Positions 2,109-42,543 of a DNA stretch of 43,641 nt are shown in pieces. The position numbers were made by a program, and so were the translations under genes. Position 1 is the stretch's first letter. Each line of letters begins with the position of its first letter. Under the pieces are notes generated by a model that had not been told where the DNA came from, made no database searches, and worked only from the letters and a program-made list of their open reading frames with translations. The DNA is from Ignavibacteriales bacterium (GTDB lineage Bacteria > Bacteroidota > Ignavibacteria > UBA10030 > UBA8401), in NCBI GenBank assembly GCA_016182545.1, contig JACPGG010000070.1, forward strand, positions 3,182-46,822, read 5' to 3'.

Positions 2109-2368
2109 GACTCTCGGTAACTCCTCATTTATATCTAATCAGTTCTCATAGCCGCGCCGGTAGTATACTGTAGAAAAAAATTACACCATTTCCCGTATTG
2201 AAAATCCCGATCAAGGTTTCTTATTTTGTCCTTCGTCAATAACCAACAGAGGGGGGAATTTAGCACTGTCGGTGTTGCGAGTTTGCTTTTTCAGGGGTCG
2301 CCACGGTGGCGTATAGAAGTAAACGCCGCTCCTGTGCTCACGCATCACAAACAGAATGGGAGAGAGAA

Positions 2369-26400: not shown

Positions 26401-28005
26401 CAGTACCGGTTTCCATCGTAGTGTTATTGTCTGCGGTTGATCGACTGAGCCGTTACCTGGTGACTCCAATTCCGGTCCGGCATATGAATCTTTCGATCGT
26501 GTGATGAAACTGTATGCTGTTGTCCACGGACTGCTGCCGCCTGAATTTTTTCCTTTGATCCTCCAAAAATAACGGTCATTATATTTCAACTCCGGAACTC
26601 GATGCGAGATACCTGTGATGGCAGAATCATTAAAGGCAAATGTGCCGAACAGTGAATCCTGAGACACTTGTAGCCAGTAGGATGATGTTTTTGAAACCGC
26701 ACTCCAGGAAAAAAGAACTGCGTTCGTGTCGACAAATGAACCATTGACAGGCGATGAAACGGTCGGAATGGCAGGCTGCTGCGGGATAGTTGTAAACGAC
26801 CACACCGCGGACCAAACGCCTTGTCCGCCACTATTCGCAGCAGCCACTCTCCAAAAATATGTTGTATCTACCAGCAGTGATTGAATCTGAAAGATCGTAT
26901 CATTCATCAACGCCGAATCAAGTACAAGCGTCGAAAAATTCGAACGGAGCGACATCTGCAGCCGATATGATGCTGCAGTGTTTACCCTCGACCAGCTCAA
27001 GTGAAGCGTGACGGGTTGATCCGTTGCACTGTTGATTGGAGATCGTAATGTGGAGACAGAAGGCGGATTTGGTATCGTTCTGAATTGCGAAGAGGATGAC
27101 CATCCGCTCGTACCACCGGCGTTGATCGACTGAACTCTCCAAAAATAGAGGGTATCTCGTTGCAGTGATTCAATCTGCACTGTAGTATCTGCTACGAGCG
27201 AATCGTTATATACCACAGTGGAAAAATCGGAACGTATAGACAATTGAACATGGTACGATGTTGTTGTTGATGTTGGAGTCCATGAAAGCGCAAGTGCGAC
27301 CGGTTGATCCACGACATTATTTGCAGGAGTATGCAACGCAGGGATCTGCGGGGGATTCGGTATTGTTGTGAAGCGGTACGTTGTTGACCAGGCACTTGTT
27401 CCACCAGCATTAAATACCTGTACTCTCCAAAAATATTCAGACTCACGCTGGAGATTTTGTAACGACAATGTCGTTGAAGAACCGATCGTTGTATCGCGTA
27501 GTGAGTTTGTAAAAAGTGAATTTCGGGCGCTCTGCACTCGATAGCCCGTTGCTTTCGGTGTAACATTCCACGAGATCGTCAGCGATAACGGCTGATTAGT
27601 TGAAAGATTTCCGGGAGAGGATAATGTTGGCGCTGCCGGCGGATTGGGTATAGTCCCAAAATTCCAGGTGTCAGACCACGCTCCATCAATTCCCAGGAAC
27701 TCTCCTCTGACACGCCAGTAATATATCTTTTCGCGTTCCAACGGACCCACTTCATGTGTTGTGGAGTTTATTCCCGATTGATCAACGATGGTTGATGCAA
27801 ACGTTGGCGACGTTGAGACCTGTATGTGGTACGAAGACGCACCGGATGCCGATTGCCATTGAAGTGTGGCAGTTAACTGTTGATTTACTGCTCCGTTAGT
27901 CGGTGAGGCAAGGGTTGCCTTTTCTACCACCTGCGCTGCAGCAATTGTAACAGTGGCAAAGAGATAGAAAAAGAAAGAACGATATTTTTGTATGTTCACA
28001 TTCAT
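23419..28005 (-). CDS. Giant FN3-repeat surface protein with T9SS sorting domain
   Basis: A 1528-residue secreted protein. After a signal peptide (FYLFATVTIAAAQ) come ten tandem fibronectin-III-like repeats of about 96 residues. Each starts near 'L.SP.N....QP' and contains YHxQVSTxxxF and YYWRVR, with conserved Trp. A more typical FN3 domain follows (about 1010-1100), then a region with a GWNLITNPFN module, and a C-terminal T9SS sorting domain (NNYPNPFNP, ending in KKMLLTK). No catalytic domain is visible, so it is likely a surface adhesin, matrix scaffold or polysaccharide-binding protein. Its ATG overlaps the stop of the polyprenyl-phosphate glycosyltransferase gene (ATGA, 28002-28005), suggesting coupled translation and a link to exopolysaccharide production or attachment. 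Confidence 0.94.
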   Translation of the reverse strand: MNVNIQKYRSFFFYLFATVTIAAAQVVEKATLASPTNGAVNQQLTATLQWQSASGASSYHIQVSTSPTFASTIVDQSGINSTTHEVGPLEREKIYYWRVRGEFLGIDGAWSDTWNFGTIPNPPAAPTLSSPGNLSTNQPLSLTISWNVTPKATGYRVQSARNSLFTNSLRDTTIGSSTTLSLQNLQRESEYFWRVQVFNAGGTSAWSTTYRFTTIPNPPQIPALHTPANNVVDQPVALALSWTPTSTTTSYHVQLSIRSDFSTVVYNDSLVADTTVQIESLQRDTLYFWRVQSINAGGTSGWSSSSQFRTIPNPPSVSTLRSPINSATDQPVTLHLSWSRVNTAASYRLQMSLRSNFSTLVLDSALMNDTIFQIQSLLVDTTYFWRVAAANSGGQGVWSAVWSFTTIPQQPAIPTVSSPVNGSFVDTNAVLFSWSAVSKTSSYWLQVSQDSLFGTFAFNDSAITGISHRVPELKYNDRYFWRIKGKNSGGSSPWTTAYSFITRSKDSYAGPELESPGNGSVDQPQTITLRWKPVLTALSYQVQVSTNSSFTSIVFDNSSLLTESIQVESLDGSTKYYWRVRSLYLIFASEWSDVWNFTTVPNSPSVPALVEPLNNATNVPTGMRFLWRPVTSATSYHLQVSTDQSFSTLIINDASVIDTVCRIESLAENTKYYWHVAALNNGGASSWSSTWSFETNIVLPPPPDPIYPPNGLTLESNTVTISWNSAPNAISYWLQLAFDSAFTAIVLNDSTIGTTSRKISGLVGSTRYFWRVRSNQSQNNSQWSQPNNFTTGQTSSSAGPSLNSPADNSTNQPTTITLRWDQDAGAASYHVQLSKNQNFSPTVLEDYSVTGTSIQTSSLEYGTAYYWRVRSNYLLVSSDWSSVWKFTTTSQIPNVPTLVSPANGATNQPLRVTVRWSSSPDTLRYHLQVATDSIFSSLTENDTTLSTTSKELRTLAVNRSYYWRVRAGKDGLWSAFSPYWTLTTKAGDLPSATTEPPSALSSTSATISALVSANGYETTVRFQYGTTNAYGNSVDGIPLTIPDTATGRKITNTLYGLTPNTTYHYRVSTTNQLGSTEGEDRSFTTLLPPYPGQISIDASFQFPTYKNPSDYKPTHYRIIGLPGNCNTRVDSMMLGIQRSDWEIYWDNGDGERILVPFDGSQNFSFTTGRAYWFIKKGPLKIERTISAAALDSMQEVKIQLHPGWNLITNPFNSIVAWSQLQSVNGITQPIYSFDGSFSISDTLRPYVGYYFFNDSAKNYLRVPYATLFSSPAPAPASAALPKSTDRGWKLSIGLTNNEYADRATWFGIEEEKFRRQIHKPAGFDMLPAVYFDRPDWNERHRTFATDMRSAFDHRQSWEFNVWLPARNKSQVTVSGIHSVPDQFEVYLIDLKASRCVNLRNDSTYVFSPADRMTTMKIVVGTSDSIRQILESVKTPASFTLGNNYPNPFNPETSIPVTIPFRSFVELSIFNILGQRIQTIQSGTLEPGNYWFRWNGKNHDGSTAPSGVYLSQLTTSNGISIAKKMLLTK
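25045..27924 (-). repeat. Ten tandem ~290-bp FN3-coding repeats
   Basis: The region encodes ten consecutive protein repeats of about 96 residues, most visible as the recurring YYWRVR or YFWRV strand and the 'SPxNxxxxQP' opening. DNA copies have diverged (third-base changes and substitutions), so the array is old rather than a fresh expansion, although repeats 3 and 4 are closer to each other. It can complicate short-read assembly. Confidence 0.85.
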
Positions 28006-29321
28006 TGAGATTGAGAGAGAGTGACATTCGGTTCAAGTTGTTCCAGTACTTTTCGTTTTCGTCCCGTCAGCGCCGGCGTCAGTTCAATTTCTTCAAAAAA
28101 GATTGTCCGTTTGCGGATCGGAATGTGCATTTCATCCGCGATTTTCTTCGCACGGCGGAGGACTTCCGGCTTCATTGTATCGCAGGCGATCAGAATTTCA
28201 TTGACGGAATATTTCTTCAACAATCGTTTCAGGAACCAGTGACCGCCGAGGACAGTGTATCCGCTGATACGCTTTCCTTCAAGCGACGGATCGTCGTCAA
28301 GAAATCCGACAGGATTGTAGTTTAACTGTTTATTATGCAATATATGGTTGAGAAGGAGAATGCCGTTTGCTCGTGCACCATAGATAAGCACATTGTAGCC
28401 GCTCGTATTTTTCCGTTCGAAAAAGAAATTGAGAATATGGAACGACATTCTGCTTCCCGCTACCAGTGAGGTAAGGATGTAGAAATCTGTCAGGACTGTC
28501 GCAGCAGTGATATTCATCCACGGTTGCCACAACGCCAAGACGATGCATCCACCGACTATCACTGCAATGAGGCATGCTTTTGCTACTTGCAGAAATTCTC
28601 CAATACCGGCATAGCGGAATGAATTGTCATACAATCCTGTCGCAAAGAAAATCGCAATTTGAATTCCGCTGATGACCGTTACGATCATCAGAGCTTCATC
28701 CGAAGGAATAGGGAGAGAACCGGTCTTCGTGAGGCTAAACGCAAGCGCGCACGAAATTGCACTGAATGCGAGATCCAAGAATCCTTGAAAGAATCGTTGG
28801 CGGACAAGCGGCCATTCGTAGAGCGGGAGAAGTATTCCGTTGCTCAGGATTGCCATCTCTTTGTATTGCAATTGACGTACACCGATGAACATTGCAATTC
28901 CAACTGCCGCAAAGACGAACGACGCCCATGCTGTATTTACGATCGTCACTGCAAATGCACCGATGCCAAAGAGAAATGAGACACAATACAATACCAGTAC
29001 GACATTGCGATGAGACAAACCGAGCGATATCAATTGATGATGAATGTGTTTTCTGTCGGGGAGGAACATTGAATGCACCTTTGTCAACATTCCGCCGGAC
29101 ATATTCCGCTGTTCAGGCAACAACGAAAAGAGGAGACGTCGTATCATTGCCAGCGTGGTATCCATGATCGGCAGACCGAGTGCAAGTAACGGAACAACAA
29201 GAGCAAATGCGGTTGATCCTTTTGTTTCCGTATGAATGGAAATAACGGCGAGCAGGAATCCTATCAACAGGCTTCCGGAGTCGCCCAAAAATATTTTTGC
29301 AGGATGGAAATTGTAAAACAA
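28002..29321 (-). pseudogene. WecA/MraY-like glycosyltransferase, C-terminal part, fused to FlaA1-type N-terminal module
   Basis: This is the second part of a gene interrupted by an in-frame TGA at 29325-29327; the frame is the same on both sides. It begins with FYNFHPAKIFLGDSGSLLIG, the family's catalytic loop, and contains the RKHIHHQL histidine motif. Both belong to the polyprenyl-phosphate glycosyl-1-phosphate transferase family. After the last transferase helices a second block of about four helices (from about DLAFSAISCALAFSL) and a Rossmann-like domain (GYNVLIYGARANGILLL, VGFLDDDPSLEGKRI) follow. These match the N-terminal membrane and CoA_binding_3 part of FlaA1/WbpM/CapD-type proteins, without the epimerase domain. 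The stop overlaps the FN3 giant gene (ATGA). The TTG at 29321 is not a credible natural start. Confidence 0.85.
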
Positions 29322-29324
29322 GAA

Positions 29325-29948
29325 TCAGCCGAGAGAACCGACGAGCGCAAGAATGACCAATGCACTGTTGTAATGACCGTTTGATGCGGATATGACGAAC
29401 ATACTCCCGGCTGCAATGATCCCCACGCCGGTTGCGAGTCCATCAAGCCCGTCAATGAGATTGAATGCATTCGTGATCCCTACAATCCACAGGAGAGTGA
29501 GAGGATAATCCAGCATTCCGATGTCGATAGTTCCCGCCGACAAAAGGCTGGTCATCGTAGAAATTTTGAAACCGCCGGCATAAACAATCGTCGCGGCGAT
29601 CGCCTGGACGAGGAATTTTTTTCCAGGGTTCAACGGATGAACATCGTCAGCCACACCGACAAAAAAGATGATCACCAGTGCCGCGATGAACGAGATCCAC
29701 TGATACGAGACGATCGTCGTCGTAATGTTTGAAATGATCCCCACTTGTAAAAAAATGAACAGTGATGCCAAATAGCTGATACAGATCGAGACACCTCCCA
29801 AACGTGGTGTGGGATGTTGGTGTATCTTTCTCTGGTTCGGTGTATCTATCGCACCCACCAGCGCGGCATACCGGATGACTCCCGGTGTAATCAAAAGCAC
29901 CAGAAGTGCGGGAACGATAAAAACGATGATGTAATAATGTTCGATCAT
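29325..29948 (-). pseudogene. WecA/MraY-like polyprenyl-phosphate glycosyltransferase, N-terminal part
   Basis: These 207 residues are the front part of a GT4-type (WecA/TagO/MraY) integral membrane transferase, which would load the first sugar phosphate on undecaprenyl phosphate. Motifs seen: DTPNQRKIHQHPTPRLGG, the catalytic VGVADDVHPLNPGKK and NAFNLIDGLDGLATG. The frame ends at TGA directly before FLFYNFHPAKIF. In homologues a Gly commonly precedes FLxYNF, so GGA to TGA is the simplest change. If read through, the whole gene spans 28002-29948 (648 residues). TGA ends other genes here, so this is not a genetic-code difference. It begins 23 bases after the PorV-like gene with only a weak ribosome site. 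Confidence 0.87.
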
Positions 29949-29971: not shown

Positions 29972-30886
29972 CTATAAAACTATCGCAAATGTGAATTCAT
30001 GGAATCTGTTTGTTGCCGTACTTGGTGAAAGAGCATAATCGAATTGAATGCCTCCCGTCCTTGTTCCCAATCCATATTTTGCCCCTGCATATGTGGGACT
30101 CACGACATATCCTGCGCGGAGATCAAAGAACTCGCTCAGCGACCATTCTAATCCGCCATTGTATCTTATACCGGTTTGCCCGAATGTTTTATCATTGGAA
30201 AGAATGATGCTAAAGATCCGTTCAGAGCGTGCTGAAGGGAAGCGCATGGTCAATCCGAGATGCAGTCTTTTTGGTAATTGACTTTGGACCATAAAGATTG
30301 AATCGTCTTTGGTGACAAAGGAGATTGTATTCCCAATACCGCTGAATACCATTCCATAGCTGATCTCAGGGGACGGCGCATATAAAAGACCGATGGATGA
30401 TGATGCATTCCATTCCGATCCGTTTTTCATTGAATGAGTTTTGATTGACCCGAGAATACCTGCGCTGAAGGTTGGTGCAATTTTGAATGAGAGTGCGCAA
30501 TCGATGCCGTACACCGCAGTCATTCGATCGTTCCCCGATTTATCAGAGATCAACAATTGCGCAGCATTGACTCCAAGAGCGATTGATGTCGTATATCCGG
30601 ATGTCAGCGGAAATGCCGCCAATTCTGTTTTTGACCTCCCATTCCATCCCTGCTGATAATTCCAGACGATCGTCCTTCGTTGCATCTGTGAAATTGAAGA
30701 GGGATTCCAGTACATGCTGCTGATATCGTACATCTCCGAGACGTACGCACCTGCAAATGATCCGGCTCGCGCACCGTACTGAAAGAGCCGTTCTTCCGGA
30801 TCATGGATCGATTGTCCGAATGTTATTCCGCAAAAGATCAGCGTGAATAAAAGTGGAGCAATAATATTTCTATCAGTCTGTTTCAT
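29972..30886 (-). CDS. PorV/PorQ-like outer-membrane barrel protein
   Basis: ATG 30886 is chosen because the signal peptide begins there (LLFTLIFCGITFGQS). The 304-residue mature protein starts with YGARAGSFAGAYVSEMYDISSMYWNPSSIS, the N-terminal signature of the PorV/PorQ/UPF0164 family related to FadL, followed by repeated amphipathic strands and ending in FHEFTFAIVL. PorV proteins of T9SS organisms shuttle or bind cargo at the cell surface. Here the gene sits between wza and the polyprenyl-phosphate glycosyltransferase gene (16 and 23 base gaps). A role in exopolysaccharide secretion or attachment is therefore possible, instead of or besides T9SS work. Confidence 0.85.
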   Translation of the reverse strand: MKQTDRNIIAPLLFTLIFCGITFGQSIHDPEERLFQYGARAGSFAGAYVSEMYDISSMYWNPSSISQMQRRTIVWNYQQGWNGRSKTELAAFPLTSGYTTSIALGVNAAQLLISDKSGNDRMTAVYGIDCALSFKIAPTFSAGILGSIKTHSMKNGSEWNASSSIGLLYAPSPEISYGMVFSGIGNTISFVTKDDSIFMVQSQLPKRLHLGLTMRFPSARSERIFSIILSNDKTFGQTGIRYNGGLEWSLSEFFDLRAGYVVSPTYAGAKYGLGTRTGGIQFDYALSPSTATNRFHEFTFAIVL

Positions 30887-30902
30887 GTGGTTGTCCAATG
30901 AT

Positions 30903-31637
30903 CTAATACAGTACTCTGAAAAATCCGAGCAATAGGACTGCATCCCGCAGAAAGTCGGAAAATGATCTGACGAAATTTTCCTTTTTCGGAATATAGACCG
31001 TATCGCCGGGACGGACTTTTGGTAATGTTTCAACTTCTCCGGTCTCCATTGCGTCTGCAAGATTTACCTCAACAGGGTCCCGATTTCCACGAAATCGAAT
31101 AATGCGCACATGTGTCAGATCCGATTCGGTTGTCGCACCGCCTGCCGATGAAAGTATCTCCAAGAGAGATACTTCGGAGGTGACCGCGTAATTATCCTGA
31201 CGCGTTACTGCTCCGATGACCGCCACTTTCTGCGCTGTCGGGCTTGATATAGCAACTGTCAATCGCGGCTCACCCTTCACATACTCGGTAAATTTCTTTT
31301 TGGCAAAAGCACTGAAATCTTCTTTTGTTAACCCCGCTGCCTTCAGATCTCCGACAAGAGGCACGGGGATTGTTCCGTTTGCATTGACGGTCGCAGTGGT
31401 GTTGAATTCAGGATAATCCCACACAGAGAGATCGATCTTGTCCCCTTCCTTTATCGTGTATGCCTGTGATTGCATTTTCACGAAGAGAGTACCGGGTGTG
31501 GAACGGGAAGAAACCGATGTCTCTCGTACTGCATTTCCCGTTGTGCATCCTGTGAAGAAAAAACTGTTTAACATCGCGAAGAGCATGACCATGACATGCG
31601 CCATAGCAATAAGTGAGGAGGAAAATTTTTTGTACAT
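30903..31637 (-). CDS. wza: Wza-type polysaccharide export lipoprotein (Poly_export + SLBB)
   Basis: ATG 31637 starts a signal sequence with a lipobox (FFFTGCTT). TTG 31649 is a possible in-frame alternative; neither has a clear ribosome site. The Poly_export domain begins with YTIKEGDKIDLSVWDYPEFN and includes NGTIPVPLVGDLKAAGLT. An SLBB domain follows (KVAVIGAVTRQDNYAV to LSSAGGATTESD) with the closing VRPGDTVYIPKKE. At 244 residues it is a short Wza homologue without a C-terminal amphipathic barrel helix as long as in E. coli. It should form the outer-membrane channel for exopolysaccharide. A -24/-12 promoter lies just upstream (31679-31695). It heads the minus-strand unit, divergent from the wzz operon. 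Confidence 0.93.
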   Translation of the reverse strand: MYKKFSSSLIAMAHVMVMLFAMLNSFFFTGCTTGNAVRETSVSSRSTPGTLFVKMQSQAYTIKEGDKIDLSVWDYPEFNTTATVNANGTIPVPLVGDLKAAGLTKEDFSAFAKKKFTEYVKGEPRLTVAISSPTAQKVAVIGAVTRQDNYAVTSEVSLLEILSSAGGATTESDLTHVRIIRFRGNRDPVEVNLADAMETGEVETLPKVRPGDTVYIPKKENFVRSFSDFLRDAVLLLGFFRVLY

Positions 31638-31678
31638 AGTAGTTGTCAATCGATAATCTTTTTTTTCTCAATAGAGAC

Positions 31679-31695
31679 GGCAAATGATGTGCCAG
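31679..31695 (-). promoter_or_regulatory. Predicted sigma-54 (-24/-12) promoter of the wza unit
   Basis: The minus strand reads CTGGCACATCATTTGCC. It matches the TGGCAC-N5-TTGC consensus, with GG at 31693-31692 and GC at 31681-31680, exactly 12 bases apart. The predicted transcription start is near 31668, about 30 bases before the wza ATG. The match is full in both core boxes and correctly placed before the first gene of the strand. Activation would need an enhancer-binding protein such as the one at 2369-3727. Confidence 0.8.
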
Positions 31696-31990
31696 CATGA
31701 ATTGACTCATGAAATTGCTCACACGCATCGTGTTTTTATTTCGCTAACTCATAATGAAAACATAACGTTGCAGTAGTTTGACGCAAGATACATCCACGTC
31801 ACTTTTTGTCTTACTATGAAATCTCAATAGTGATTGTCCGGCTCTTCAAAAACATTCTTTACACACTTCGTACAATTTTGTGTTTCGTATTTACTCACCC
31901 TGAGTCTCATGATTTTCAATTCAGCCTTGTCATTCTTCAGAAAGAAGCCACTTCGTTGCTGATTCCACCGTTTTTCTTAATCGTATGCGG
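31696..31990. other. Region between divergent sigma-54 promoters, likely activator-binding
   Basis: These ~295 bases between the two -24/-12 elements carry no gene and are A/T-rich. A perfect inverted repeat ACACG-CAT-CGTGT lies at 31721-31733, and a looser ACACA...TGTGT pair occurs near 31862-31883. Either could be an upstream activator site for a Fis-type helix-turn-helix protein. One shared activator region serving both promoters would be economical, but this is inference. Confidence 0.35.
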
Positions 31991-32007
31991 TTGGCACGCG
32001 AGTTGTT
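31991..32007 (+). promoter_or_regulatory. Predicted sigma-54 (-24/-12) promoter of the wzz operon
   Basis: The plus strand reads TTGGCACGCGAGTTGTT. The -24 box is perfect (TTGGCACG), and the -12 box is TTGTT in place of TTGCW, with GG (31993-31994) and GT (32005-32006) at the required spacing. The start of transcription would be near 32018, giving a leader of about 40 bases to the wzz TTG at 32057, which has GGAG eight bases before it. The single mismatch lowers certainty compared with the opposite promoter. Confidence 0.7.
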
Positions 32008-32056
32008 TTGACTACAGATACCTTTCAATCAAAGTATTATTCACGGAGCGTATTCA

Positions 32057-32203
32057 TTGACACGAGGACAACTGACTGCTCAAGAGATTCTTTCGGCATT
32101 ACGCCGCAGGAAAAAATTGATCGTCATTCCAATTCTAATTGTGACAGGGTTGTGCACGCTGGGTGCATTTGTTCTGCCGAGGAAGTACGAGTCCGGACTA
32201 TAA
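32057..32203 (+). pseudogene. Wzz/GNVR chain-length protein, N-terminal fragment
   Basis: TTG 32057 has GGAG eight bases upstream. It reads TAQEILSALRRRKKLIVIPI and continues through the first membrane helix to FVLPRKYESG, then stops at TAA 32201. This is the N-terminus of a GNVR-type chain-length determinant (typically a LPRKYES element followed by a beta-strand region). The following part is out of frame and about 50-65 residues are missing at the junction near 32190-32205, so the gene carries an internal deletion. The remainder is at 32163-33245. It is the first gene behind the sigma-54 promoter. Confidence 0.8.
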
Positions 32204-33245
32204 ATTACTTTCAGAAGAAGAACGGCAAGAATTGATCAAAGAAGTACAGAAGAATATTACCACAGAACGCCCCGGATCGTCGACTTTTTCCATGTCCTAC
32301 ATGGATGAAGATCCTGTCCGGGCTCAGAAGGCGGTCACGTTGATAGCAAATCTGTTCATCAAAACGATACTGCAGGTTGAGAATCAGCGGAACGAGCTGG
32401 CAGTCGATTTTTTTGAGACGAAACTGGAAGAACTGCGGATTCGATTTGAAAAGAGTCAGCAGGAGATGTTGACAAACATTCGGCGCCATATCCAGGAGAT
32501 GCCGGGAGATGGAAGAATGCTCTCGACAAATTTGGAGGAATCCGAACGTGAAATCAGGAGGGTGGATGAGCAGTTTAAAATATACCACCAGGCGCTGCAA
32601 TTGCTCCGTAAATATCCCGATCCAATATCATCCGAAGAAGGACGGAAGGCGCTCTATGAACTGCAATTGATGGAGGTCCCCTACGCGGGAAACTTGCAGC
32701 AATTCATGACAAAGTACGACGACTATTCAAGAAAGTACACGCCCCGGTATCCCGAAATGCAAAAACTCATCAACCAAATCAAAGACCTGCTGGTCATGAT
32801 GAACAATACCCTTGAAAAAGAATCCGATAAGATGAGAACGATGAGGTTGGAAGCAGAAAAACGGAGGTCGCGTTCGATATCCGATCTGCAGTATTCTTCC
32901 GTTTCTCAAACTGAAGCGGGGGATAAAGAATCCAACTATGATATCTACCGCAATCTGTACAACGAGATGAAGATCAAACTTGAACAAGCCAGGGCAACGC
33001 GGGATCTGGGACGGAAGCAAAAGGACCGTTTCCTGATCATCGATCCTCCCGTTGTTCCCACTGAACCGTCGAAACCGAACCGGTTGCTGATCATTCTCGG
33101 CGGATTTGCTTCCAGCATCATCATCGGATTGGTGAGTGCAGCGTTTGCAGAACTGCTTGATACAACAATGAGAAAGAAGCAAGACTTTGAAGTGTACGAC
33201 AAGCCGATAATCGCATACATACCTGATGGAAGGTTTCAGCAATGA
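32163..33245 (+). pseudogene. Wzz/GNVR polysaccharide chain-length determinant, main part
   Basis: The genuine protein begins near 32200 (SPDYKLLSEEERQELIKEVQ); codons before that are out-of-frame. The following region matches Wzz/GNVR proteins of exopolysaccharide loci (RAQKAVTLIANLFIKT, VENQRNELAVDFFETKLEEL). A long coiled coil (about 70-250), the YTPRYPEMQKL element and a closing P-x-x-P-x-x-P-x-x-P motif before the second membrane helix (IDPPVVPTEPSKPNR, LLIILGGFASSIIIGLVSAA) follow. Polysaccharide co-polymerases of this type set chain length with the Wzc-type kinase, whose gene overlaps by 4 bases (ATGA, 33242-33245). Because the front is deleted and frameshifted, normal protein cannot be made from this sequence as given. 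Confidence 0.87.
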
Positions 33246-34057
33246 GCCGGACAGAAATAATGGAGATACGACACATGAGCGATGAAAACGAAGAGAACGG
33301 ATCTCACCCATTCCAACAGATGCTTCCTGCTGCAACGGACACAGAGCATGAATCTCTCGTTGCGCTTCCCAAAGCGATCGTGATGAATCCGGGACGAAGC
33401 AAAGTGCTGGACCAACATACCGTGGCATTTCAGTATTACAATTCGTTCAACTATTCACTCTTGAAGAAGAAGAACAAAGGAATTCGTCTCGCCATCGGCA
33501 TTACAAGTGCAAATCCCGGAGAGGGCAAATCATTGGTCGCGTCCAATTTGGCGGTCTCGCTGACATTGGGCTACAAGAAAAAAACCGTGCTTGTCGATTT
33601 GAATATCAACCGCCCGTCGCTTCATGAAATTTTCGGCACGTCAACCGGTCCGGGATTGATCGAAGCGTTGAACGACGGGGACATCCATCTCTGGGAAACA
33701 CCTGTAGATCATTTGCATCTGCTTTCCTGCGGCGGAAAGTCGCGCACAAACGGATCGAGCCGCAACGGGCATCACGGAAGCTCGTTCAAGCACCGGTATC
33801 TGGATCTGGATCAAATGACCTCATTCAGCGATGTGATCACTTCGCTTCAGCAAGAGTACGAATTTGTCATTGTGGATATGCCGTCCATGAACAACGAGGA
33901 TTTTCCGATCCTCTTCGCTAACCGGTTGGACGGATTGTTGATGGTGGTCGATTCGGTGACCACAAAACGGAACGACATGGAAAAAGTGTTCCGGCGTTTG
34001 AACGAACAACAAATTCTCGGATTCATTCTCAACAAAGTCAGCGATAAGCAGGAGTAG
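33242..34057 (+). CDS. Wzc/CapB-type ATPase (BY-kinase-like) of exopolysaccharide system
   Basis: A 271-residue cytoplasmic P-loop protein of the MinD/BY-kinase family. Walker A is SANPGEGKSL (with the PGEGK of capsule kinases). The Walker A' segment reads VLVDLNINRPSL, where the usual IDADLRRP has Asn replacing the second Asp. Walker B is VIVDMPSM. The protein ends in KVSDKQE, and the tyrosine-rich tail of Wzc is missing. It is therefore more likely an ATP-driven partner of the Wzz protein than a strong autophosphorylating tyrosine kinase. It overlaps the wzz gene by 4 bases and precedes a tiny membrane protein gene by 12 bases. Confidence 0.88.
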   Translation: MSRTEIMEIRHMSDENEENGSHPFQQMLPAATDTEHESLVALPKAIVMNPGRSKVLDQHTVAFQYYNSFNYSLLKKKNKGIRLAIGITSANPGEGKSLVASNLAVSLTLGYKKKTVLVDLNINRPSLHEIFGTSTGPGLIEALNDGDIHLWETPVDHLHLLSCGGKSRTNGSSRNGHHGSSFKHRYLDLDQMTSFSDVITSLQQEYEFVIVDMPSMNNEDFPILFANRLDGLLMVVDSVTTKRNDMEKVFRRLNEQQILGFILNKVSDKQE

Positions 34058-34248: not shown

Positions 34249-35781
34249 ATGAATACTGAAACATACACATATCAGTACGAAGCGTCCGAACCGTGGCTGC
34301 TGAGTCAAGAAATGAACAGGGGGAATGCGATTGCATTTTTACTGATGCTGCTGGTTTCAGTGGCGGCATCGCTGATCCTGGTACTTACCTACGGAAATAT
34401 CTTTGCCGCCGGAGCGTTTGTCGGAATGACCGTGGTTGTGGCGCTGACGTTGTACCGGGTTCAGTGGGGATTCTATCTTTTTGTAGGTTTTGTACTATTG
34501 TTCGACCAATTCGATATTCCAGAGTTCTATCCGTTCACGTTGAAAGTTTCGTATTTCCGGAATATCAAAGAAATTCCTTATCTGCCGTCGCTTGACGCGG
34601 CTGTCTTCAATCCTCTTGAACTTCATCTCTTGTTCATTTTGCTTGTGTGGTTTATCGTTACCGGGTTCAAGAAACGCGTTCACTTCAACAGAATACCGTT
34701 GTGGGGTTCGGCTCTCGCATTCTTTCTCGGACTCTTCTTTTTTGTCGGGTATGGATTGCAACGGGGCGGAGAATTTCTTGTTGCACTGTGGGAAGTGCGC
34801 GCCCTCTTCTACTTTGCCGCGCTGTATTTCCTTGTTCCGCAGATCATTCAAACCAAGGACGATCTTCGCTCACTCATGTGGGTCTGTATCATCGCGATAG
34901 CGCTGAAAGCGTTCCAGGGAATAGCGCGTTTTGTCGTGCTTGGATTTACACTGGGAGGCATCCCAACGCTGACCAACCATGAAGATCCTCTGTTTATGCT
35001 CACTCTGATCGTGTTTCTCTTTGCGATGGTATTGTACAATGCACAGGAAAGTCAGCGTTTCACATTGCTCCTTTTACTCTTTCCATTGATGATGGGTTTT
35101 TTTGTCGCTCAACGACGCGCGGCGTACGCTGCAATGGCAATGTCATTCGTTACGTTGTTCGTCGCTCTTTCTGCTAAAGAGCGACTGCTACTGGCGAAAA
35201 CAGGAATGATATTCATTGTCATCGTCGGTGTTTATTCCGCGGCTCTGTGGGAAAGCGAAAGCAGATTCGCGTCGCCGGTACGATTGATAAAGACCGCCGT
35301 CAGTGACGATAAAGAAGCGCAGGGAGACCGGTACTATTCCAATTTGTACAGGGAATTCGAGAAGTATAACCTCGCTTCCACAGTAAAATTTTCGCCGGTT
35401 ATCGGGGTAGGATTTGGCAACAAATATTTTCAGCCGATACCGCTTGCCAATATTCCGTTCCCATTGCGCGATTACATTCCTCACAATGAAATATTGTGGT
35501 TGATCGTAAAGACGGGCGCAGTCGGATTCTTTTTGTTCTGGTTCTTTCTCAACTGCTTTGCGTGCAACGCGTCGTCCGTGCTAACACGATTGACCGATCC
35601 GTACGTGAAGTCCGTGTGCGTTGTTGCAATTGCCGCTGTTGTCGGACAGATCACAGTATCGTATTACGATCTCCAGTTGACCTATTACCGCAATATGGTC
35701 TATCTGGGAACATTAACGGGAGTGGTTCATTCACTCGAGCATATTGATTTGCAGGTGAGAGCGGCTGCCAAGAATTCTTAA
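34249..35781 (+). CDS. Wzy-like O-antigen/exopolysaccharide polymerase
   Basis: A 510-residue integral membrane protein with about 12 hydrophobic helices, for example AIAFLLMLLVSVAASLILVL and MVVYLG-type segments, and a large loop containing RYYSNLYREFEKYNL to YIPHNEILWLIVKTGAVG. The HNEILW motif in the Wzy_C-type loop is typical of O-antigen ligases/polymerases. It should join repeat units at the periplasmic face using undecaprenyl-linked substrates made by the other enzymes. The ATG at 34249 has AGAAGA upstream. It sits between the small membrane protein gene and a WecG/TagA glycosyltransferase gene. Confidence 0.88.
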   Translation: MNTETYTYQYEASEPWLLSQEMNRGNAIAFLLMLLVSVAASLILVLTYGNIFAAGAFVGMTVVVALTLYRVQWGFYLFVGFVLLFDQFDIPEFYPFTLKVSYFRNIKEIPYLPSLDAAVFNPLELHLLFILLVWFIVTGFKKRVHFNRIPLWGSALAFFLGLFFFVGYGLQRGGEFLVALWEVRALFYFAALYFLVPQIIQTKDDLRSLMWVCIIAIALKAFQGIARFVVLGFTLGGIPTLTNHEDPLFMLTLIVFLFAMVLYNAQESQRFTLLLLLFPLMMGFFVAQRRAAYAAMAMSFVTLFVALSAKERLLLAKTGMIFIVIVGVYSAALWESESRFASPVRLIKTAVSDDKEAQGDRYYSNLYREFEKYNLASTVKFSPVIGVGFGNKYFQPIPLANIPFPLRDYIPHNEILWLIVKTGAVGFFLFWFFLNCFACNASSVLTRLTDPYVKSVCVVAIAAVVGQITVSYYDLQLTYYRNMVYLGTLTGVVHSLEHIDLQVRAAAKNS

Positions 35782-35819: not shown

Positions 35820-36710
35820 ATGGCAACAGTGGTCGATCGGGAAAAGGTTTTGAGTGATGTATTCACTGAAAGTACACATTCGATAGAGAGAAGATCAAAG
35901 AAGCAAACACAACAGGTCCGTTTTCAATTACGCAGTTTTTATCTGATGGGAACAAGAGTAGACAATATCGACAGTGATCTCGCACTTCGCATCGTACGGC
36001 ACTACGCCGTCGACCATGGTGCAGACCGTGCACGAAAAATATTTTTCACGAATGTGCACAGCATCTGTTCTGCACAGCAGAATGAAATTCTCAAGCAGTG
36101 CATCAACCTGGGTGATCTTGTCCTTCCGGACGGAAGCGGGTTAAGGATCGGCGGAAAAATGACGGGGAATCCGATCATAGAAAATTTGAACGGAACAGAC
36201 TTTACTCCCAAAGTACTTCGCATGGCGGAGGATGAAGGTTTATCTCTCTTCTTTTTTGGAGCGGAAGAGCCGGTCGTTCAGCAATGCTGCAACCGGATCC
36301 GCAACGCCTATCCGAAACTTCGGATCGCCGGGTACCGCAACGGATATTTTCAAGAGAGTGAAGATAAAAATATTGTGGAACAGATCAATGCAGCCCGTCC
36401 GGATATACTGTTGGTCGCTCTTGGTACGCCAAAGCAGGAGATATGGCTTACGCGGTATTCACACGACCTGAATGTGAATGTTGCAATGGCGGTGGGAGGA
36501 TTGTTCGACTTTCTTTCAATGACAAAGAAAAGGGCGCCATTGTGGATGCGCCGTCTCGGAATCGAATGGCTGTTCCGTTTTCTTCACGAACCGAAGGCGA
36601 AATGGAAAAGAATTATCATTGAAATACCGATGTACTTTTCAATGCTCTTTGCCAAAAAATATGTGCCCGCATCATTTCAGCGGACACTGCGGAAGGCTAT
36701 CTTCTCATGA
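35820..36710 (+). CDS. WecG/TagA/CpsF family glycosyltransferase (GT26)
   Basis: A 296-residue enzyme, soluble and probably membrane-peripheral, starting at ATG 35820 after GGAGCGGGAG. The family signatures are clear: FFTNVHSICSAQQN, LVLPDGSGLRIGG, LFFFGAEEP, PDILLVALGTPKQEIW and AVGGLFDFLS. Such enzymes add the second sugar (for example N-acetylmannosaminuronic acid or N-acetylmannosamine) to the lipid-linked primer made by WecA/TagO. This fits with the WecA-like gene on the opposite arm. About 40 residues at the N-terminus are an extra, charged extension. It overlaps the flippase gene by 4 bases. Confidence 0.93.
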   Translation: MATVVDREKVLSDVFTESTHSIERRSKKQTQQVRFQLRSFYLMGTRVDNIDSDLALRIVRHYAVDHGADRARKIFFTNVHSICSAQQNEILKQCINLGDLVLPDGSGLRIGGKMTGNPIIENLNGTDFTPKVLRMAEDEGLSLFFFGAEEPVVQQCCNRIRNAYPKLRIAGYRNGYFQESEDKNIVEQINAARPDILLVALGTPKQEIWLTRYSHDLNVNVAMAVGGLFDFLSMTKKRAPLWMRRLGIEWLFRFLHEPKAKWKRIIIEIPMYFSMLFAKKYVPASFQRTLRKAIFS

Positions 36711-38206
36711 ATGGAAGCATCGCACATTCAGTAGCAAAAAACACCACTGTGATGATCGTGTCGCAATCGATCACCTGGGCGTCGAGTTTTGTCCTTATGC
36801 TGTTCCTGCCGCGCTACCTCGGCAGCGAAGAGTACGGGAAATTATTCCTTGCGATCTCCATTACAACCATATTCCAAATGGTCGTCGAATTCGGCGGAGG
36901 ATATTACATCGCAAAGGAAGTGTCACGTGAGAGGGAGAAGATCTCCGTCATGCTCTCCAACTCAATCGCGTTTCGCTTTGTTGTGTGGCTGGGAGGATTC
37001 GTTGCGTTAATGTGGATCGCGGTTGCTGTGGGCTATTCCCCAACTGTCATCTCCGTGATCTATGTTCTTGGATTCTCGAAGTTGTGGGAAGGTGTCGGGA
37101 AAGTATATCATAGCACGTGTCAGGGATTGGAGATGATGCACTATCCCGCAATCAGTGCCATCGTTGAGCGCGTTGTCGTGACTTCATTAAGCGTCACTGC
37201 GCTGCTGCTCGGCGCTGACGTGGTGACGATATCGGTGATCATGGCGTTGAGCACATTGTTGAATTTTTTCATCCTTTCGAAATTAATGAAGAGCCATGTG
37301 CAGTACCTGTGGACACCACGTTTGACGGAAATGGCAAGGATCGCCAAAGCATCGATACCGTACTTTATGTGGATGATGTTCTCGGTTGTGTATTATCGCA
37401 TTGATGCCGTGATGCTCTCACTAATGACGCCGGAGAATGTTGTGGGATGGTACGGCGCAGCCTACAGATTTTTTGACGTGTTGATGTTTCTTCCCAGTAT
37501 TTATTCGATGGCTCTCTTTCCGTTGTTATCCAAGTTGTGGATGACAAAACAGGATGCGGTCGCCGTGACGACGCAGAAGAGTCTTCAGTTCATCGTATTA
37601 GCGGGGATTCCCATCAGTGTCTGCGTCTTTACATTCTCCCATGAGATCATCGAGTTATTCTTTGGAACAGCGGAATATGCCCCTTCTATTTTACTGTTGA
37701 GAATATTTTCCGTCGGTTTGCTTCTCATCTACGTCGATTTTGTCCTCGGTACCGCACTCTTTGCATCCGACCGCCAGCGGCAATGGACACTGACAGCATT
37801 TTTTGCAATGCTGCTGAACCCGGCACTGAATTATTTCTTCATTCCCTTCACGCAACTTCATGAAGGGAACGGCGGTATCGGTGCTGCACTGGCAACGTTG
37901 TTGACAGAATATTTTGTGATGATAATGGCATTGAGGTCCCTGCCGCGATCTGTCTTTCAGGATGCCAATCCGAATTTTCTCTATAAAGGCTCTGTTGCCG
38001 CAGCACTTATGGGATTGACCTTGTGGTTGTTCCATGAAAGTAATGTCCATTGGATGCTGACGGCAGTTGTCGCCATTGCGGTGTACTGTGCCGGATTAGT
38101 AAACCTGAAAGCGATCGAGCCGGCTGAAATGAATTTCCTGCGCTCATTTTTTTCATTAAAAAACCTGAAGAACCTTTTTGTCTTATCCAAGGAGTCCCGT
38201 ACATGA
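36707..38206 (+). CDS. Wzx-like flippase (oligosaccharide translocase)
   Basis: A 499-residue polytopic protein of the polysaccharide-transport MOP superfamily. It has an N-terminal SITWASSFVLMLFLPRYLGSEEYG, roughly twelve or more membrane helices and the typical pairs of PlxxR/GxxEY loops. Wzx proteins flip lipid-linked repeat units across the inner membrane to the polymerase. The ATG overlaps the previous stop by 4 bases and its own stop overlaps the next gene by 4 bases, so translation is coupled along this stretch. Confidence 0.92.
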   Translation: MNGSIAHSVAKNTTVMIVSQSITWASSFVLMLFLPRYLGSEEYGKLFLAISITTIFQMVVEFGGGYYIAKEVSREREKISVMLSNSIAFRFVVWLGGFVALMWIAVAVGYSPTVISVIYVLGFSKLWEGVGKVYHSTCQGLEMMHYPAISAIVERVVVTSLSVTALLLGADVVTISVIMALSTLLNFFILSKLMKSHVQYLWTPRLTEMARIAKASIPYFMWMMFSVVYYRIDAVMLSLMTPENVVGWYGAAYRFFDVLMFLPSIYSMALFPLLSKLWMTKQDAVAVTTQKSLQFIVLAGIPISVCVFTFSHEIIELFFGTAEYAPSILLLRIFSVGLLLIYVDFVLGTALFASDRQRQWTLTAFFAMLLNPALNYFFIPFTQLHEGNGGIGAALATLLTEYFVMIMALRSLPRSVFQDANPNFLYKGSVAAALMGLTLWLFHESNVHWMLTAVVAIAVYCAGLVNLKAIEPAEMNFLRSFFSLKNLKNLFVLSKESRT

Positions 38207-39465
38207 AGATTCTTTTTGTCGCCCCGTATGCACCCGTACCGCCGACATTCGGCGGCGCACTGCGCATCTATCATCTGCTCAAACAATCTGCGCTTCGGCA
38301 CGAGGTATCGTTGATTGCGTACGGAGGGAACGCGGAGTATCAATTGCTAAGGGAACACTTTGGTCAATCACTGCGCCATATCTATTTACTGCCGTATCCG
38401 TGGACGGACAGATTCCGGCGGCTGGGGCAGTTGTATGCGCTGTGTTCCGGTCACAGTTTCTTCCATCATTTGATCTATTCGCAGCAGATGCAATCTCTGA
38501 TCGATGCAGTGATCGATAAAGAGCAATTCGATCTGATCCAAACAGAATTTGCTGTTGTCGGCGCTTTCGACTTTAAGACAGATGCAGTTAAAATCCTCGA
38601 TGCGCATAATGTAGAATACGATAATTTTCTCAGGATGTCGCAGCGGGTCGGCTCATTGTTGCGAAAGATCCACTACCGGCGTGAGTATAAAAAATTTTTC
38701 CGTGAGGAGATCGCCGCGTGCAGGAAGTACGACGCTCTGTTCATTACGTCGCAGCGGGATAAATATATTCTTCACAAGGATGTTCCCTCTGTGCCAAAGT
38801 TTGTGATACCCAACGGAGTTGACACGGACTATTTTGCGTCGTCATCGTCCGTCCGCGAAGAAAATTCTCTTGTTTTTACCGGAATGATGGGATACGTGCC
38901 GAATTACGACGGTATGGAATATTTTCTGGACCAGATATTCCCTCATGTCATCAGCCAACTACCTGATGCAAAAGTATATATCGTGGGCGGTAAACCTCCG
39001 AAGCATCTGCTGCAACGAAGATCGGACAACATTATTGTGACCGGATATGTTAACGATGTGCGTCCTTTTATCGACAAGGCAAAAGTATATGTCGTTCCGC
39101 TCCGCATGGGAGGCGGGACACGGCTAAAAATACTTGAGGCGATGTCTATGAAGATCCCGATCGTTACAACGTCGATCGGGTGTGAAGGTATCGAAGTGAA
39201 AGATAACGAAACGGCGTTTGTCCGGGATGAACCGGTCGATTTTGCACATGCCGTCGTGAATTTGCTGAGAGATGAGCAGACCGCTGCGAGGTTGATAAAA
39301 AACAGCTACGACAAAGTCCGAGCGACGTACGATTGGTCGATCATTGGTGAGCAGGCGGATTATTATTACACCAGACTTGTGAACAATAGACTCACGGTCG
39401 ATGCTGAGCATGAAGAAACAGTGCTTGTTCCAAGTTCAGCCGTTGAATTTCAACACGCAGGATAA
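38203..39465 (+). CDS. GT4-family glycosyltransferase
   Basis: A 420-residue GT-B enzyme. The N-terminus MKILFVAPYAPVPPTFGGA is typical of GT4 donors with a glycine-rich start. The C-terminal domain has VVPLRMGGGTRLKILEAMS followed by IPIVTTSIGCEGI, which is the nucleotide-sugar binding E-x7-E region of GT4 enzymes. It would add a sugar to the lipid-linked repeat unit in the cytoplasm. The donor and acceptor are unknown. It overlaps the flippase gene by 4 bases (ATGA) and the next gene starts 12 bases later. Confidence 0.92.
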   Translation: MKILFVAPYAPVPPTFGGALRIYHLLKQSALRHEVSLIAYGGNAEYQLLREHFGQSLRHIYLLPYPWTDRFRRLGQLYALCSGHSFFHHLIYSQQMQSLIDAVIDKEQFDLIQTEFAVVGAFDFKTDAVKILDAHNVEYDNFLRMSQRVGSLLRKIHYRREYKKFFREEIAACRKYDALFITSQRDKYILHKDVPSVPKFVIPNGVDTDYFASSSSVREENSLVFTGMMGYVPNYDGMEYFLDQIFPHVISQLPDAKVYIVGGKPPKHLLQRRSDNIIVTGYVNDVRPFIDKAKVYVVPLRMGGGTRLKILEAMSMKIPIVTTSIGCEGIEVKDNETAFVRDEPVDFAHAVVNLLRDEQTAARLIKNSYDKVRATYDWSIIGEQADYYYTRLVNNRLTVDAEHEETVLVPSSAVEFQHAG

Positions 39466-39477
39466 CAGGGACGCAGA

Positions 39478-40395
39478 ATGAGACTCCAGACAACATACAA
39501 AGATACCTCGCATACCAATGGAAGTACGCGCATGGTGCATCATCCGCATCTCATTGATATTAAGATACTAATGTTTCATCGCGTCGTAACGAACAAGGAT
39601 CTTGCACGCAAACATCCGTTCTGCCTCCATATGTCGGAATTCCGCCGCCACATAGAATGGCTCGATCGTCACGGTTTTGTTCCGATCACGTTGGAAGATT
39701 ACCGCCTGTATAATGATGGACAGCTGGAACTTCCGCGCAAGCCGATCATTCTGACATTCGATGACGGATACCTCGATACGTATGAGGTCGCGTTCCCGGT
39801 CTTGAATGAATTCGGCATGAAGGGTGTAGTGTTCGTGCTCGGCGATCGATCGGTGAAAGAAAACAGATGGGATTGGAACTACAATGGCTCTGCGGCGCCG
39901 TTGATGGAAAACCATCATATCCTTGAAATGTCGGAAGCCGGGATTGAGATCGGCGCACATTCGATGACACATCCAAAATTAACCACGCTGGATGAACGGG
40001 CAGCATGGAATGAGATATCAAGGTCGAGGATCCTGCTTGAAATAGTATTGAACAGACCTGTCTTGAGTTTTTCGTATCCGTACGGATTTGTAAATGAATC
40101 GGTGAAAGCGATGGTCTCCGATGCCGGATTTACACATGCATGCAGTGTGTGGTCCGGTCCGCTGATGTTCGGGAAGGACAATTTTGAGCTGCGTCGTATT
40201 CCGATCCTTAATTCCAGCACCACTGTCAGTTTGGCGATGAAACTCTCCGCTCCATTTCAATACTACAGTTGGCTCCGTTCAAAATTCAAGAACATGATAG
40301 TGACCGGCAGCGGCAGCCATAGCGGAACGCCGTTGCCCAAAACCTTTGATCCCGTAGCAGCGGCAAATATCCAAAATATCCGTGAGGCAGTATGA
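39478..40395 (+). CDS. Polysaccharide deacetylase (NodB homology domain)
   Basis: A 305-residue enzyme. The catalytic ILTFDDGYLDT motif (residues 91-101, with Asp95/Asp96) and the metal ligands His161 and His165 (HSMTHPKL) are visible; the later FSYPYG is the third motif. There is no signal peptide, so it may act in the cytoplasm on a lipid-linked intermediate, as known for deacetylases in exosortase-type EPS loci. It would remove N-acetyl groups from an amino sugar. The start at ATG 39478 has GGGA six bases upstream; an ATG after about 18 codons is an alternative. Confidence 0.92.
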   Translation: MRLQTTYKDTSHTNGSTRMVHHPHLIDIKILMFHRVVTNKDLARKHPFCLHMSEFRRHIEWLDRHGFVPITLEDYRLYNDGQLELPRKPIILTFDDGYLDTYEVAFPVLNEFGMKGVVFVLGDRSVKENRWDWNYNGSAAPLMENHHILEMSEAGIEIGAHSMTHPKLTTLDERAAWNEISRSRILLEIVLNRPVLSFSYPYGFVNESVKAMVSDAGFTHACSVWSGPLMFGKDNFELRRIPILNSSTTVSLAMKLSAPFQYYSWLRSKFKNMIVTGSGSHSGTPLPKTFDPVAAANIQNIREAV

Positions 40396-41564
40396 ACCAT
40401 ACAAAAATTGAAACCCGTCCAGAAATCGATCGCCCGGTTCACAAAGCGAAGCTGAATCGCGATGCAGCAGCGCGTGATGAAAAGACAAGGCAAACGCCGT
40501 TGGTGAGCCGGGTTATTTCCAATGAGAATGGATTCTTATCGTTGCGCGCAGAATGGAATTCATTGGTTGATCATTCCCCGGTCCACATCTACCAGACATT
40601 CGATTGGCAGTGGTTTTGGTGGAAACATTACGGCGCGAACAATACCCTGCACATCGTCACATTTCGCTCGGATGATCGACTGGTAGGGATCATCCCGATG
40701 TTTGTCCAGCCGTACACGGTCTTCGGGAAGACGTTATACAAACGACTGCGCATGATCGGATGCGGGGTCGATTCCAAAAACAATGTCGGTCTGCCATCCG
40801 AATACGGTCCGAGCGATTATCTAGATGTGATCGTTCTTCCGGAATACGCTTCGGAGATTGCGGAACTGTTCGCATCGTATGTGATGTTGAGCGGCGACGC
40901 ATTTGATGAAGTGCAGTTCTCAAACGTACCGCAGCGCGGATTCCTTCAGGAATATTTCGTCTCGCCATTCGAAGCAAAAGGATTTGAATTGACACTGCAC
41001 AGCAATGACAATTGCCCGTACCTTTCAATGCCTCCATCTGCTGCCGATTTTTTAGACCGCCTTCGTCCCAGTACCCGTTACAGGGTGCGACAGTCCAAAA
41101 AAGAGTTCATCCAGAATCCCCCATTCGGACTCGAGTCAGTCGTCTATCGTTCAACGCTCGACCAAGCATTCACAGATCTCATGCACCTTCATCAGATACG
41201 ATGGAACAGGCTCGGATATGCCGGGCTCTTCTCCGATCCGCGATTCACCGCTTTTCAAAAAGATGTACTCCATTCATTCTATGAACAAGGATTGCTCTGG
41301 TTCAAAGCGGTCCGTATGGGAGGGATCCGTACGGCAGCGAGGCTTGGTTTCTTTTTCAAGGGAAGGATGTACGATTACCTTTCAGGATTTGACGAGACGT
41401 TGCCGGGAGCAAAGAAAAGGCCGAGTCTGGCGCTGTTGATCTCAATGATCGAGGATGCTATTGAGAAGGACGCCGGGACGGTCGACTTCCTGCGTGGAAA
41501 TGAAGCATACAAATTTGAGATGACCCGCGAATCGACGCGCAACACAGAGATATTTCATATATGA
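40392..41564 (+). CDS. FemAB/CelD-like GNAT-fold acyltransferase
   Basis: A 390-residue protein of the Acetyltransf_6 group. The N-terminus (LSLRAEWNSLVDHSPVHIYQTFDWQWFWW) is a strong signature of CelD/BcsL-FemAB enzymes, and the C-terminal GNAT part includes LRPSTRYRVRQSKKE, RMYDYLSGFDE and VDFLRGNEAYKF. It probably transfers an acyl or aminoacyl group to the polysaccharide or its precursor. Partner enzymes are the overlapping deacetylase (4-base ATGA overlap) and the ComA-like enzyme. Such deacetylase plus FemAB pairs occur in exosortase-associated EPS loci. The substrate is unknown. Confidence 0.88.
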   Translation: MNHTKIETRPEIDRPVHKAKLNRDAAARDEKTRQTPLVSRVISNENGFLSLRAEWNSLVDHSPVHIYQTFDWQWFWWKHYGANNTLHIVTFRSDDRLVGIIPMFVQPYTVFGKTLYKRLRMIGCGVDSKNNVGLPSEYGPSDYLDVIVLPEYASEIAELFASYVMLSGDAFDEVQFSNVPQRGFLQEYFVSPFEAKGFELTLHSNDNCPYLSMPPSAADFLDRLRPSTRYRVRQSKKEFIQNPPFGLESVVYRSTLDQAFTDLMHLHQIRWNRLGYAGLFSDPRFTAFQKDVLHSFYEQGLLWFKAVRMGGIRTAARLGFFFKGRMYDYLSGFDETLPGAKKRPSLALLISMIEDAIEKDAGTVDFLRGNEAYKFEMTRESTRNTEIFHI

Positions 41565-41620: not shown

Positions 41621-41643
41621 GCGACAATGAAAAAGGTGATGTG

Positions 41644-42543
41644 ATGAGAGAGGAAACAACAAAAGAAATAAAAGAGCATTTGCTCAAAAGACGATTCCAT
41701 TCCGCTGAATTGATGCGGACGCTGGGCGTACTCCAGGTTCCGCCGTTGACGGCAGTGCTCGACACGGGGTTCGATCCGTTGACCGTTGAGAGTCATTTGA
41801 CCCAAAGCGGGCACCTGATGTCGATGATGAAGATGGCATCTGCCGGATGGCTTATTGCGGACGAGAATGCCCTCCGCCAGAAAGTATCTGCTGCGCAACG
41901 GTACAACGTACCGGTCGTCATGGGGAATGATATCTTTGTACTCTCACAGGCAAAGGGAAGAGTTGATGATTTTCTTGAACTGTGCGCGGACATCGGGGTT
42001 TCGAGGATCGAGGTGGACTATTTCACAGTTCGTTCATCCATGAAGCCACGTGATTTTGCCGTGACTGCTTTACGACGCGACCTCCAATTCATCGCAGAAA
42101 TTGCATTGCATGATCATGGTCTGTCCCATAGAAAAACGATCGACGCGTTGGTGGAGCGTGCGCAACACTGGCTCGATGCCGGCGCCGTGCAGCTGCTGGT
42201 AACATCCATTGAAAAGCAGCCATCGTTCAACACATTCTCGTCGAGAGCCACGCTCAATTATAAATACGTCGATGCGTTTGCAAAAACATTCGGTTTGCAT
42301 TCTGTCGTGTTTGATACCCCATCACAAGGAATGAGCAGGACATTGCTCGATTATTTCGGACCCGATGTCAATCTCGGCGGAGTGCGATTCGGGGATCTCT
42401 TGAACATCGAGGCGTATCGCCGTGGTCTTCATACACGGGCACTTCACAACCGCAGCAAACGCCGCTTGGTCACTGCTGAGGATGCAGAGAAGGCGAAAAA
42501 TATCGAATCAAAGCGAACACTTGAACGGAAGGAAGATCAATAG
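41644..42543 (+). CDS. Phosphosulfolactate synthase (ComA)-like TIM-barrel enzyme
   Basis: A 299-residue protein (ATG 41644, AAGGTG six bases upstream; a GTG sits one codon before). It follows the ComA family (phosphosulfolactate synthase): VLDTGFDPLTVESHL, MMKMASAGWLI, LRQKVSAAQRYNVPVVMGN, a ' IFVLSQAKGRVDDFLELC' stretch, GVSRIEV and FVKLG-like positions. ComA adds sulfite to phosphoenolpyruvate, giving phosphosulfolactate, the first step of coenzyme M synthesis in archaea; bacterial homologues make sulfolactate. Finding it inside an exopolysaccharide operon, between a FemAB-type acyltransferase and a methyltransferase, is unusual. It may supply a sulfolactate or other PEP-derived group for glycan decoration. 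The family match is fair to good by eye; the reaction here is inferred. Confidence 0.8.
   Translation: MREETTKEIKEHLLKRRFHSAELMRTLGVLQVPPLTAVLDTGFDPLTVESHLTQSGHLMSMMKMASAGWLIADENALRQKVSAAQRYNVPVVMGNDIFVLSQAKGRVDDFLELCADIGVSRIEVDYFTVRSSMKPRDFAVTALRRDLQFIAEIALHDHGLSHRKTIDALVERAQHWLDAGAVQLLVTSIEKQPSFNTFSSRATLNYKYVDAFAKTFGLHSVVFDTPSQGMSRTLLDYFGPDVNLGGVRFGDLLNIEAYRRGLHTRALHNRSKRRLVTAEDAEKAKNIESKRTLERKEDQ

Follow-up and report, generated by a model that had tools for sequence, protein, structure and literature searches.

Gene content of the polysaccharide locus

The window, by which we mean the whole 43,641-nucleotide stretch of Ignavibacteriales DNA analyzed here, carries a Wzx/Wzy-type exopolysaccharide (EPS) locus whose two arms diverge from a 407-bp gap between a wza-like and a wzz-like gene. 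The two arms comprise the following genes.

30903..31637, minus strand: wza-like outer-membrane polysaccharide export lipoprotein (Poly_export PF02563; TIGR03027 below cut-off)
29972..31060, minus strand: PorV/PorQ-family beta-barrel protein, second gene of the wza arm (NF033709 at 56.9 bits, below cut-off; true start inside the frame)
28002..29948, minus strand: WecA-like phosphoglycosyltransferase with a CoA_binding_3-type domain (profile match; frameshift at about 29322)
32057..33245, plus strand: wzz-like chain-length determinant, first gene of the plus arm (TIGR03007 below cut-off; internal deletion and frameshift at about 32200)
33242..34057, plus strand: XrtA-type tyrosine autokinase-like protein (TIGR03018 at 88 bits, below cut-off)
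34249..35781, plus strand: Wzy-like polymerase (Wzy_C; NF041870 below cut-off)
35820..41564, plus strand: rest of the wzz arm, with a WecG-type glycosyltransferase, Wzx flippase, glycosyltransferase, polysaccharide deacetylase, and FemAB/GNAT-like protein (profile matches; order largely conserved)

Gene order across the locus is largely kept in relatives, 17 of which have a PorV/PorQ homologue adjoining wza. For the export, chain-length, and kinase proteins, the closest families are those associated with XrtA and PEP-CTERM proteins, all below the NCBIfam cut-offs, and Wzy and Wzx match the exopolysaccharide models NF041870 and NF041871, likewise below cut-off. Assignment to the XrtA/PEP-CTERM EPS system was rejected, with TIGR03027, TIGR03007, and TIGR03018 all falling short and no exosortase (PF09721) found in the genome (an 88%-complete assembly) or in 57 of 60 relatives.

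Compared with relatives such as G015, the wzz gene of the window lacks its frame and some 56 codons from KYES to KLLSEE; the deletion may be real, or the assembly may be at fault. Other genes are split over two frames, namely, the WecA-like transferase (29325-29948 and 28002-29321), which is a single open reading frame in relatives such as G002 and G010, and probably a methyltransferase (42546-42908 and 42826-43341). Such splits suggest indel errors in the contig.

Sigma-54 elements in the wza-wzz gap

Each strand of the gap carries a predicted -24/-12 element close to the first start codon of its arm, as an earlier note on this DNA had proposed, and the two are the best matches to a sigma-54 weight matrix anywhere in the window.

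31679..31695, minus strand: predicted sigma-54 -24/-12 promoter of the wza arm, CTGGCACATCATTTGCC (predicted start 31668; best matrix match in the window; conserved 5' of wza in most orthologous loci)
31991..32007, plus strand: predicted sigma-54 -24/-12 promoter of the wzz arm, TTGGCACGCGAGTTGTT (predicted start 32018; second-best matrix match in the window; conserved 5' of wzz)

Both elements show GG-N10-GC(T) spacing in a TGGCAC-N5-TTGC context. The exact string TGGCACN5TTGC occurs in the window at the minus element only; the plus element departs from it, again as had been noted, by a single T for C in the GC of the -12 box. Scores are 16.7 bits (minus) and 13.8 bits (plus), ranks 1 and 2 in 43.6 kb, from a matrix that is approximate and built on published frequencies. 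In first-order shuffles of the 407-bp gap, a match at least as good as the minus element arose in 0.1%, and both together arose in 0 of 3,000. The wza ATG (31637) follows its predicted start by 31 nt, and the wzz TTG (32057) follows its own by 39 nt. The -12 box of the plus element reads GC in two of the three nearest relatives (TTGGCACACGAGTTGCG) and GT in the third, as in the window; locus L049 likewise has T at -12 and has an intact wzz.

The genome encodes rpoN (PF04552, 194.6 bits, in a 486-aa open frame), as sigma-54 control presupposes. Other -24/-12 matches, for which the earlier note had suggested searching the genome, do exist, but not in excess: with up to one mismatch, the pattern occurs 177 times genome-wide, against 216 for the reversed pattern. 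Pattern counting was accordingly set aside as uninformative by itself, and the case for the elements rests on conservation and position.

Conservation of the divergent pair

Among 60 relatives searched, 20 had a wza orthologue that scored above 140 bits. All 20, which belong to the same order as the window, have a divergent wzz upstream of wza, and most have a -24/-12 site directed toward each gene. Extending the search to the phylum brought in another 14 loci from outside the order; in 13, a divergent wzz-like frame is present. Tested together, the 35 loci (the window, 20 of its order, and 14 from the rest of the phylum) include 24 with divergent sites that each reach 10 bits, one per strand; 9 of these are among the 14 from outside the order, and the number expected from shuffles is 0.08. 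As the genomes are related, these counts are not independent, although the presence and absence of the locus and of the candidate activator described below alternate among genera. Loci L062 to L064, from one genus, retain only a recognizable wzz-side site, and L201 has no divergent partner. A Bacteroidota-type housekeeping promoter (TTG-N17-23-TAnnTTTG) was fully matched in none of the loci.

On sequence comparison, it is this conservation that decides the reality of the predicted promoter pair. The earlier note had considered a symmetrical divergent pair uncommon; for this wza family, the predicted pair is instead the usual arrangement and no oddity of this genome.

Palindromes between the promoters

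Three palindromic elements of the gap bear on where an activator might bind.

31879..31897, no strand: candidate activator site 1, TGTGTTTCGTATTTACTCA (plus-strand letters; 11 of the 14 consensus bases of TGTGTAA-N5-TTACACA; best motif match in the gap; position as in relatives)
31847..31865, no strand: candidate activator site 2, CAAAAACATTCTTTACACA (plus-strand letters; largely a single half-site; site 1 is 32 bp away)
31721..31733, no strand: ACACG-CAT-CGTGT palindrome, ACACGCATCGTGT (window only)

In an unbiased count of gapped 4+4-mers over 15 representative gaps, GTAA-N7-ACAC came first, in 9 of 15, with a maximum of 6 in shuffled gaps. It is part of a longer palindrome, TGTGTAA-N5-TTACACA, which a palindromic matrix recovered at P of ≤0.034 in 18 of the 21 loci of the order under leave-one-group-out testing. 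Copies per locus often number two or three, and two copies at the same 32-bp spacing are present in the nearest relatives, L048 to L051. The copies in the window are degenerate, site 1 being weak when taken alone (leave-one-out P of 0.11), and lie about 100 to 190 bp from the two -24 elements, a usual distance for a sigma-54 enhancer.

The ACACG-CAT-CGTGT palindrome to which the earlier note had drawn attention is indeed present between the promoters, but it is conserved in 0 of the 20 relatives of the order and is probably not functional. These comparisons point to TGTGTAA-N5-TTACACA as the likely enhancer in its place. Genome-wide, with up to one mismatch, counts of TGTGTAA-N5-TTACACA about equal those of the control, so that it is no general regulon marker, and its use as one was rejected.

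A candidate activator

A gene elsewhere in the window could supply the protein that reads these sites.

2306..3727, plus strand: probable activator, an enhancer-binding protein, LGVSRKTLHNKL (PF00158 at 229 bits; HTH_8; alignment; co-occurrence with wza)

Its product has the features of an enhancer-binding protein, with an AAA+ domain containing Walker A and a GAFTGA loop and a C-terminal Fis-type helix-turn-helix (HTH). Its receiver is degenerate: the acceptor Asp is missing from the place where the third strand ends (FDAVIYRCERAAD), and the match to PF00072, at 28.4 bits, is below cut-off, so it does not qualify as the phosphorylatable receiver of two-component members.

In a profile search of the 60 relatives, orthologues turned up in 19 of the 20 that carry this wza, whereas the 40 that lack it had 0 (Fisher 1e-14). 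The sole exception, G049, has the locus and a palindrome, and an activator orthologue was undetected there. Presence and absence alternate between genera inside several families, so the distribution is not that of one clade. Within the order, orthologues score at least 462 bits, and the best other enhancer-binding proteins in control genomes that lack wza score at most 402. The activator gene is linked to the EPS locus in the window and in G023, G054, G027, and G051; the alignment was made from linked copies, but most of the orthologues counted are located on other contigs and were independent finds. In most genomes with wza from outside the order, the protein that matches best is a receiver-less form of about 345 aa, which lies on the wza contig within about 3 to 25 kb in 10 of the 14 loci. 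These forms score no higher than paralogues in control genomes, so orthology there rests on linkage and the shared recognition helix.

That helix, (S/A)RKTLHNKL, is nearly constant. In G033 and G046, where no trace of the palindrome is seen, the proteins lack a receiver and the helices read SRRALLYKL and SRKALYDRL. This parallel change of helix and site is, among the sequence comparisons made, the strongest single hint that the activator may read the palindrome. The existence of a single co-occurring activator gene fits the suggestion that one enhancer-binding protein could serve both arms. A sigma-54 site with a good palindrome was not found 5' of the activator gene itself.

In some relatives, good palindromes occur at further places. 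One, in the G030 stretch (L150, about 11871), lies upstream of a strong -24/-12 site, and another is at G015:C67:9806-9822 (L187); both lie at most about 11 kb from the EPS wza gene. In certain genomes, the locus may contain additional targets of the activator.

A proposed bidirectional control region and its alternatives

Our preferred reading, to which we give a probability of about 0.8, is that the 407-bp gap acts in both directions as an enhancer-dependent control region, in which one dedicated activator opens both promoters. Much of the phylum shares the pair and, with it, one dedicated activator gene, so both arms are probably activated together. Sigma-54 RNA polymerase would occupy both -24/-12 sites in closed complexes, and the 2306-3727 product would bind between the promoters, at the palindromic sites near 31847-31897, and could then open both by looping the DNA and hydrolyzing ATP. 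The result would be co-induction of wza-porV-wecA on one side and of wzz, the tyrosine kinase, wzy, wecG, wzx, the glycosyltransferase, and the deacetylase on the other. As the receiver here has no phospho-acceptor Asp, and linked relatives from other classes of the phylum have no receiver at all, gating by phosphorylation is improbable; the activator is probably gated by its level, by a ligand such as c-di-GMP, as with EpsI/Nla24 (PMC4877007), or by a partner protein.

Several observations stand against this reading, among them the degenerate palindromes of the window and the T that replaces C at -12 of the plus promoter, as well as the lack of a recognizable wza-side site in L062 to L064 and the undetected activator orthologue in G049. 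The first two would be expected if only the wza-side element worked here and the wzz side had decayed, leaving a degenerating remnant of a locus, and the shortened, frame-broken wzz and the split wecA-like gene could be taken in the same sense. We nevertheless regard such decay as unlikely, as frameshifts in several unrelated genes of a MAG contig resemble assembly error, the rest of the plus promoter is intact, L049 combines the same T with an intact wzz, and the activator gene itself is intact. It is similarly improbable that both promoters are real and each arm answers to its own enhancer-binding protein and its own signal: the genome has ten strong enhancer-binding proteins and the palindrome is often present more than once, but a single motif family was found in the gap, and one activator, the one of the ten that was profiled, fits the phylogenetic profile of the locus. 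That both -24/-12 matches arose by chance, with transcription starting from ordinary promoters, would agree with the unremarkable genome-wide pattern counts; it is very hard to reconcile with the orientation and position conserved in 24 of 35 loci and with the lack of any full housekeeping match among them, and we give it next to no credence.

Comparison with known systems

That EPS and envelope functions can be under sigma-54 control is already known (PMC3162934). In the PrsK/PrsR system, PEP-CTERM genes are under sigma-54 control through a box reported for Proteobacteria only (Haft 2006, PMC1569441); this PrsR box spans 17 nt, ends in TTTACA (motif 1, sometimes repeated), and is followed by a -24/-12 site (PMC1569441). 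The present locus is similar in its association with EPS, in its pairing of a candidate activator box with a -24/-12 site, and in its NtrC-family activator with a Fis-type HTH (PMC1569441), and its export, chain-length, and kinase proteins are kin to XrtA-associated families. It differs in that the box there precedes PEP-CTERM genes, whereas here the EPS genes themselves have the predicted promoters; in Aquincola, EPS biosynthesis genes are reported to be independent of RpoN1 (PMC9850573). Membership in the PrsR, PrsK, and exosortase families was rejected on the curated cut-offs: the 2306-3727 product scores 348.6 bits as PrsR (TIGR02915) against a cut-off of 502.6, and PrsR and PrsK reached cut-off in 0 of the 60 relatives.

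The eps locus of Myxococcus xanthus is likewise a Wzx/Wzy-type EPS locus with its own NtrC-like activator, EpsI/Nla24; Nla24 is phosphorylated by MXAN_7439 and binds c-di-GMP (PMC4877007, PMC7484181). The activator described here differs in lacking the acceptor Asp, and the parts of those reports that were consulted describe no shared divergent sigma-54 promoter pair (PMC4877007, PMC7484181). In Burkholderia cenocepacia, RpoN and the enhancer-binding protein BerB turn on the bep EPS genes, as is proposed here, but by an indirect route via the regulator berA and not at promoters of the biosynthesis operons (PMC5552954). In Desulfovibrio vulgaris, a shared predicted activator motif is known for divergent sigma-54 operons of type III secretion (DVUA0100), which parallels the present arrangement in another function and in Desulfovibrio (PMC4641369).

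The literature covered, which is a part of the whole, held nothing relevant on divergent sigma-54 EPS promoters in Bacteroidota, and on that partial coverage a shared, bidirectional, phylum-wide EPS module appears to be undescribed. Little work has been done on the sigma-54 regulons of Bacteroidota and Ignavibacteria, and the analysis provides a named candidate activator gene, a predicted DNA site, and two target promoters for a widespread Wzx/Wzy-type locus, all of which can be tested in cultivable relatives. It suggests a single on/off switch for export, length control, and polymerization, and would extend the PrsR-like idea of a palindromic box with a -24/-12 site beyond Proteobacteria and from matrix proteins to polysaccharide genes.

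Accessory genes of the locus

In 11 of the 20 relatives, the wza arm encodes a sister of the activator, a degenerate AAA+ protein of about 280 aa that resembles sigma-54 activators and is absent from the window. It retains the PF00158 domain and lid, has the GAFTGA loop replaced, and has no HTH or other DNA-binding domain. Examples are the following.

L151:15226-16038, L153:3307-4110, L129:691-1545, L142:17932-18876, L140:17968-18780, L133:1436-2281, and L135:1157-2074: degenerate AAA+ protein

It is a possible feedback partner of the EPS activator. A wider reading, which is conceivable and which we advance only tentatively, would have a bidirectional switch operating phylum-wide under a phosphorylation-independent activator, on which this sister, present in about half of the loci of the order, could feed back by mixed assembly.

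Next to the activator gene, at 3720-6728 and 7009-10413, are two large adjacent proteins that, from a reading of their sequences, resemble GH18-type chitinases with T9SS C-terminal sorting domains, and homologues of these lie near the EPS locus in several relatives. At 41641-42543, 3' of the EPS genes, is a ComA-like phosphosulfolactate synthase (PF02679, 116 bits), with homologues near the locus in G010, G015, G045, and G047; it could possibly provide a sulfolactate-type decoration of the polymer.
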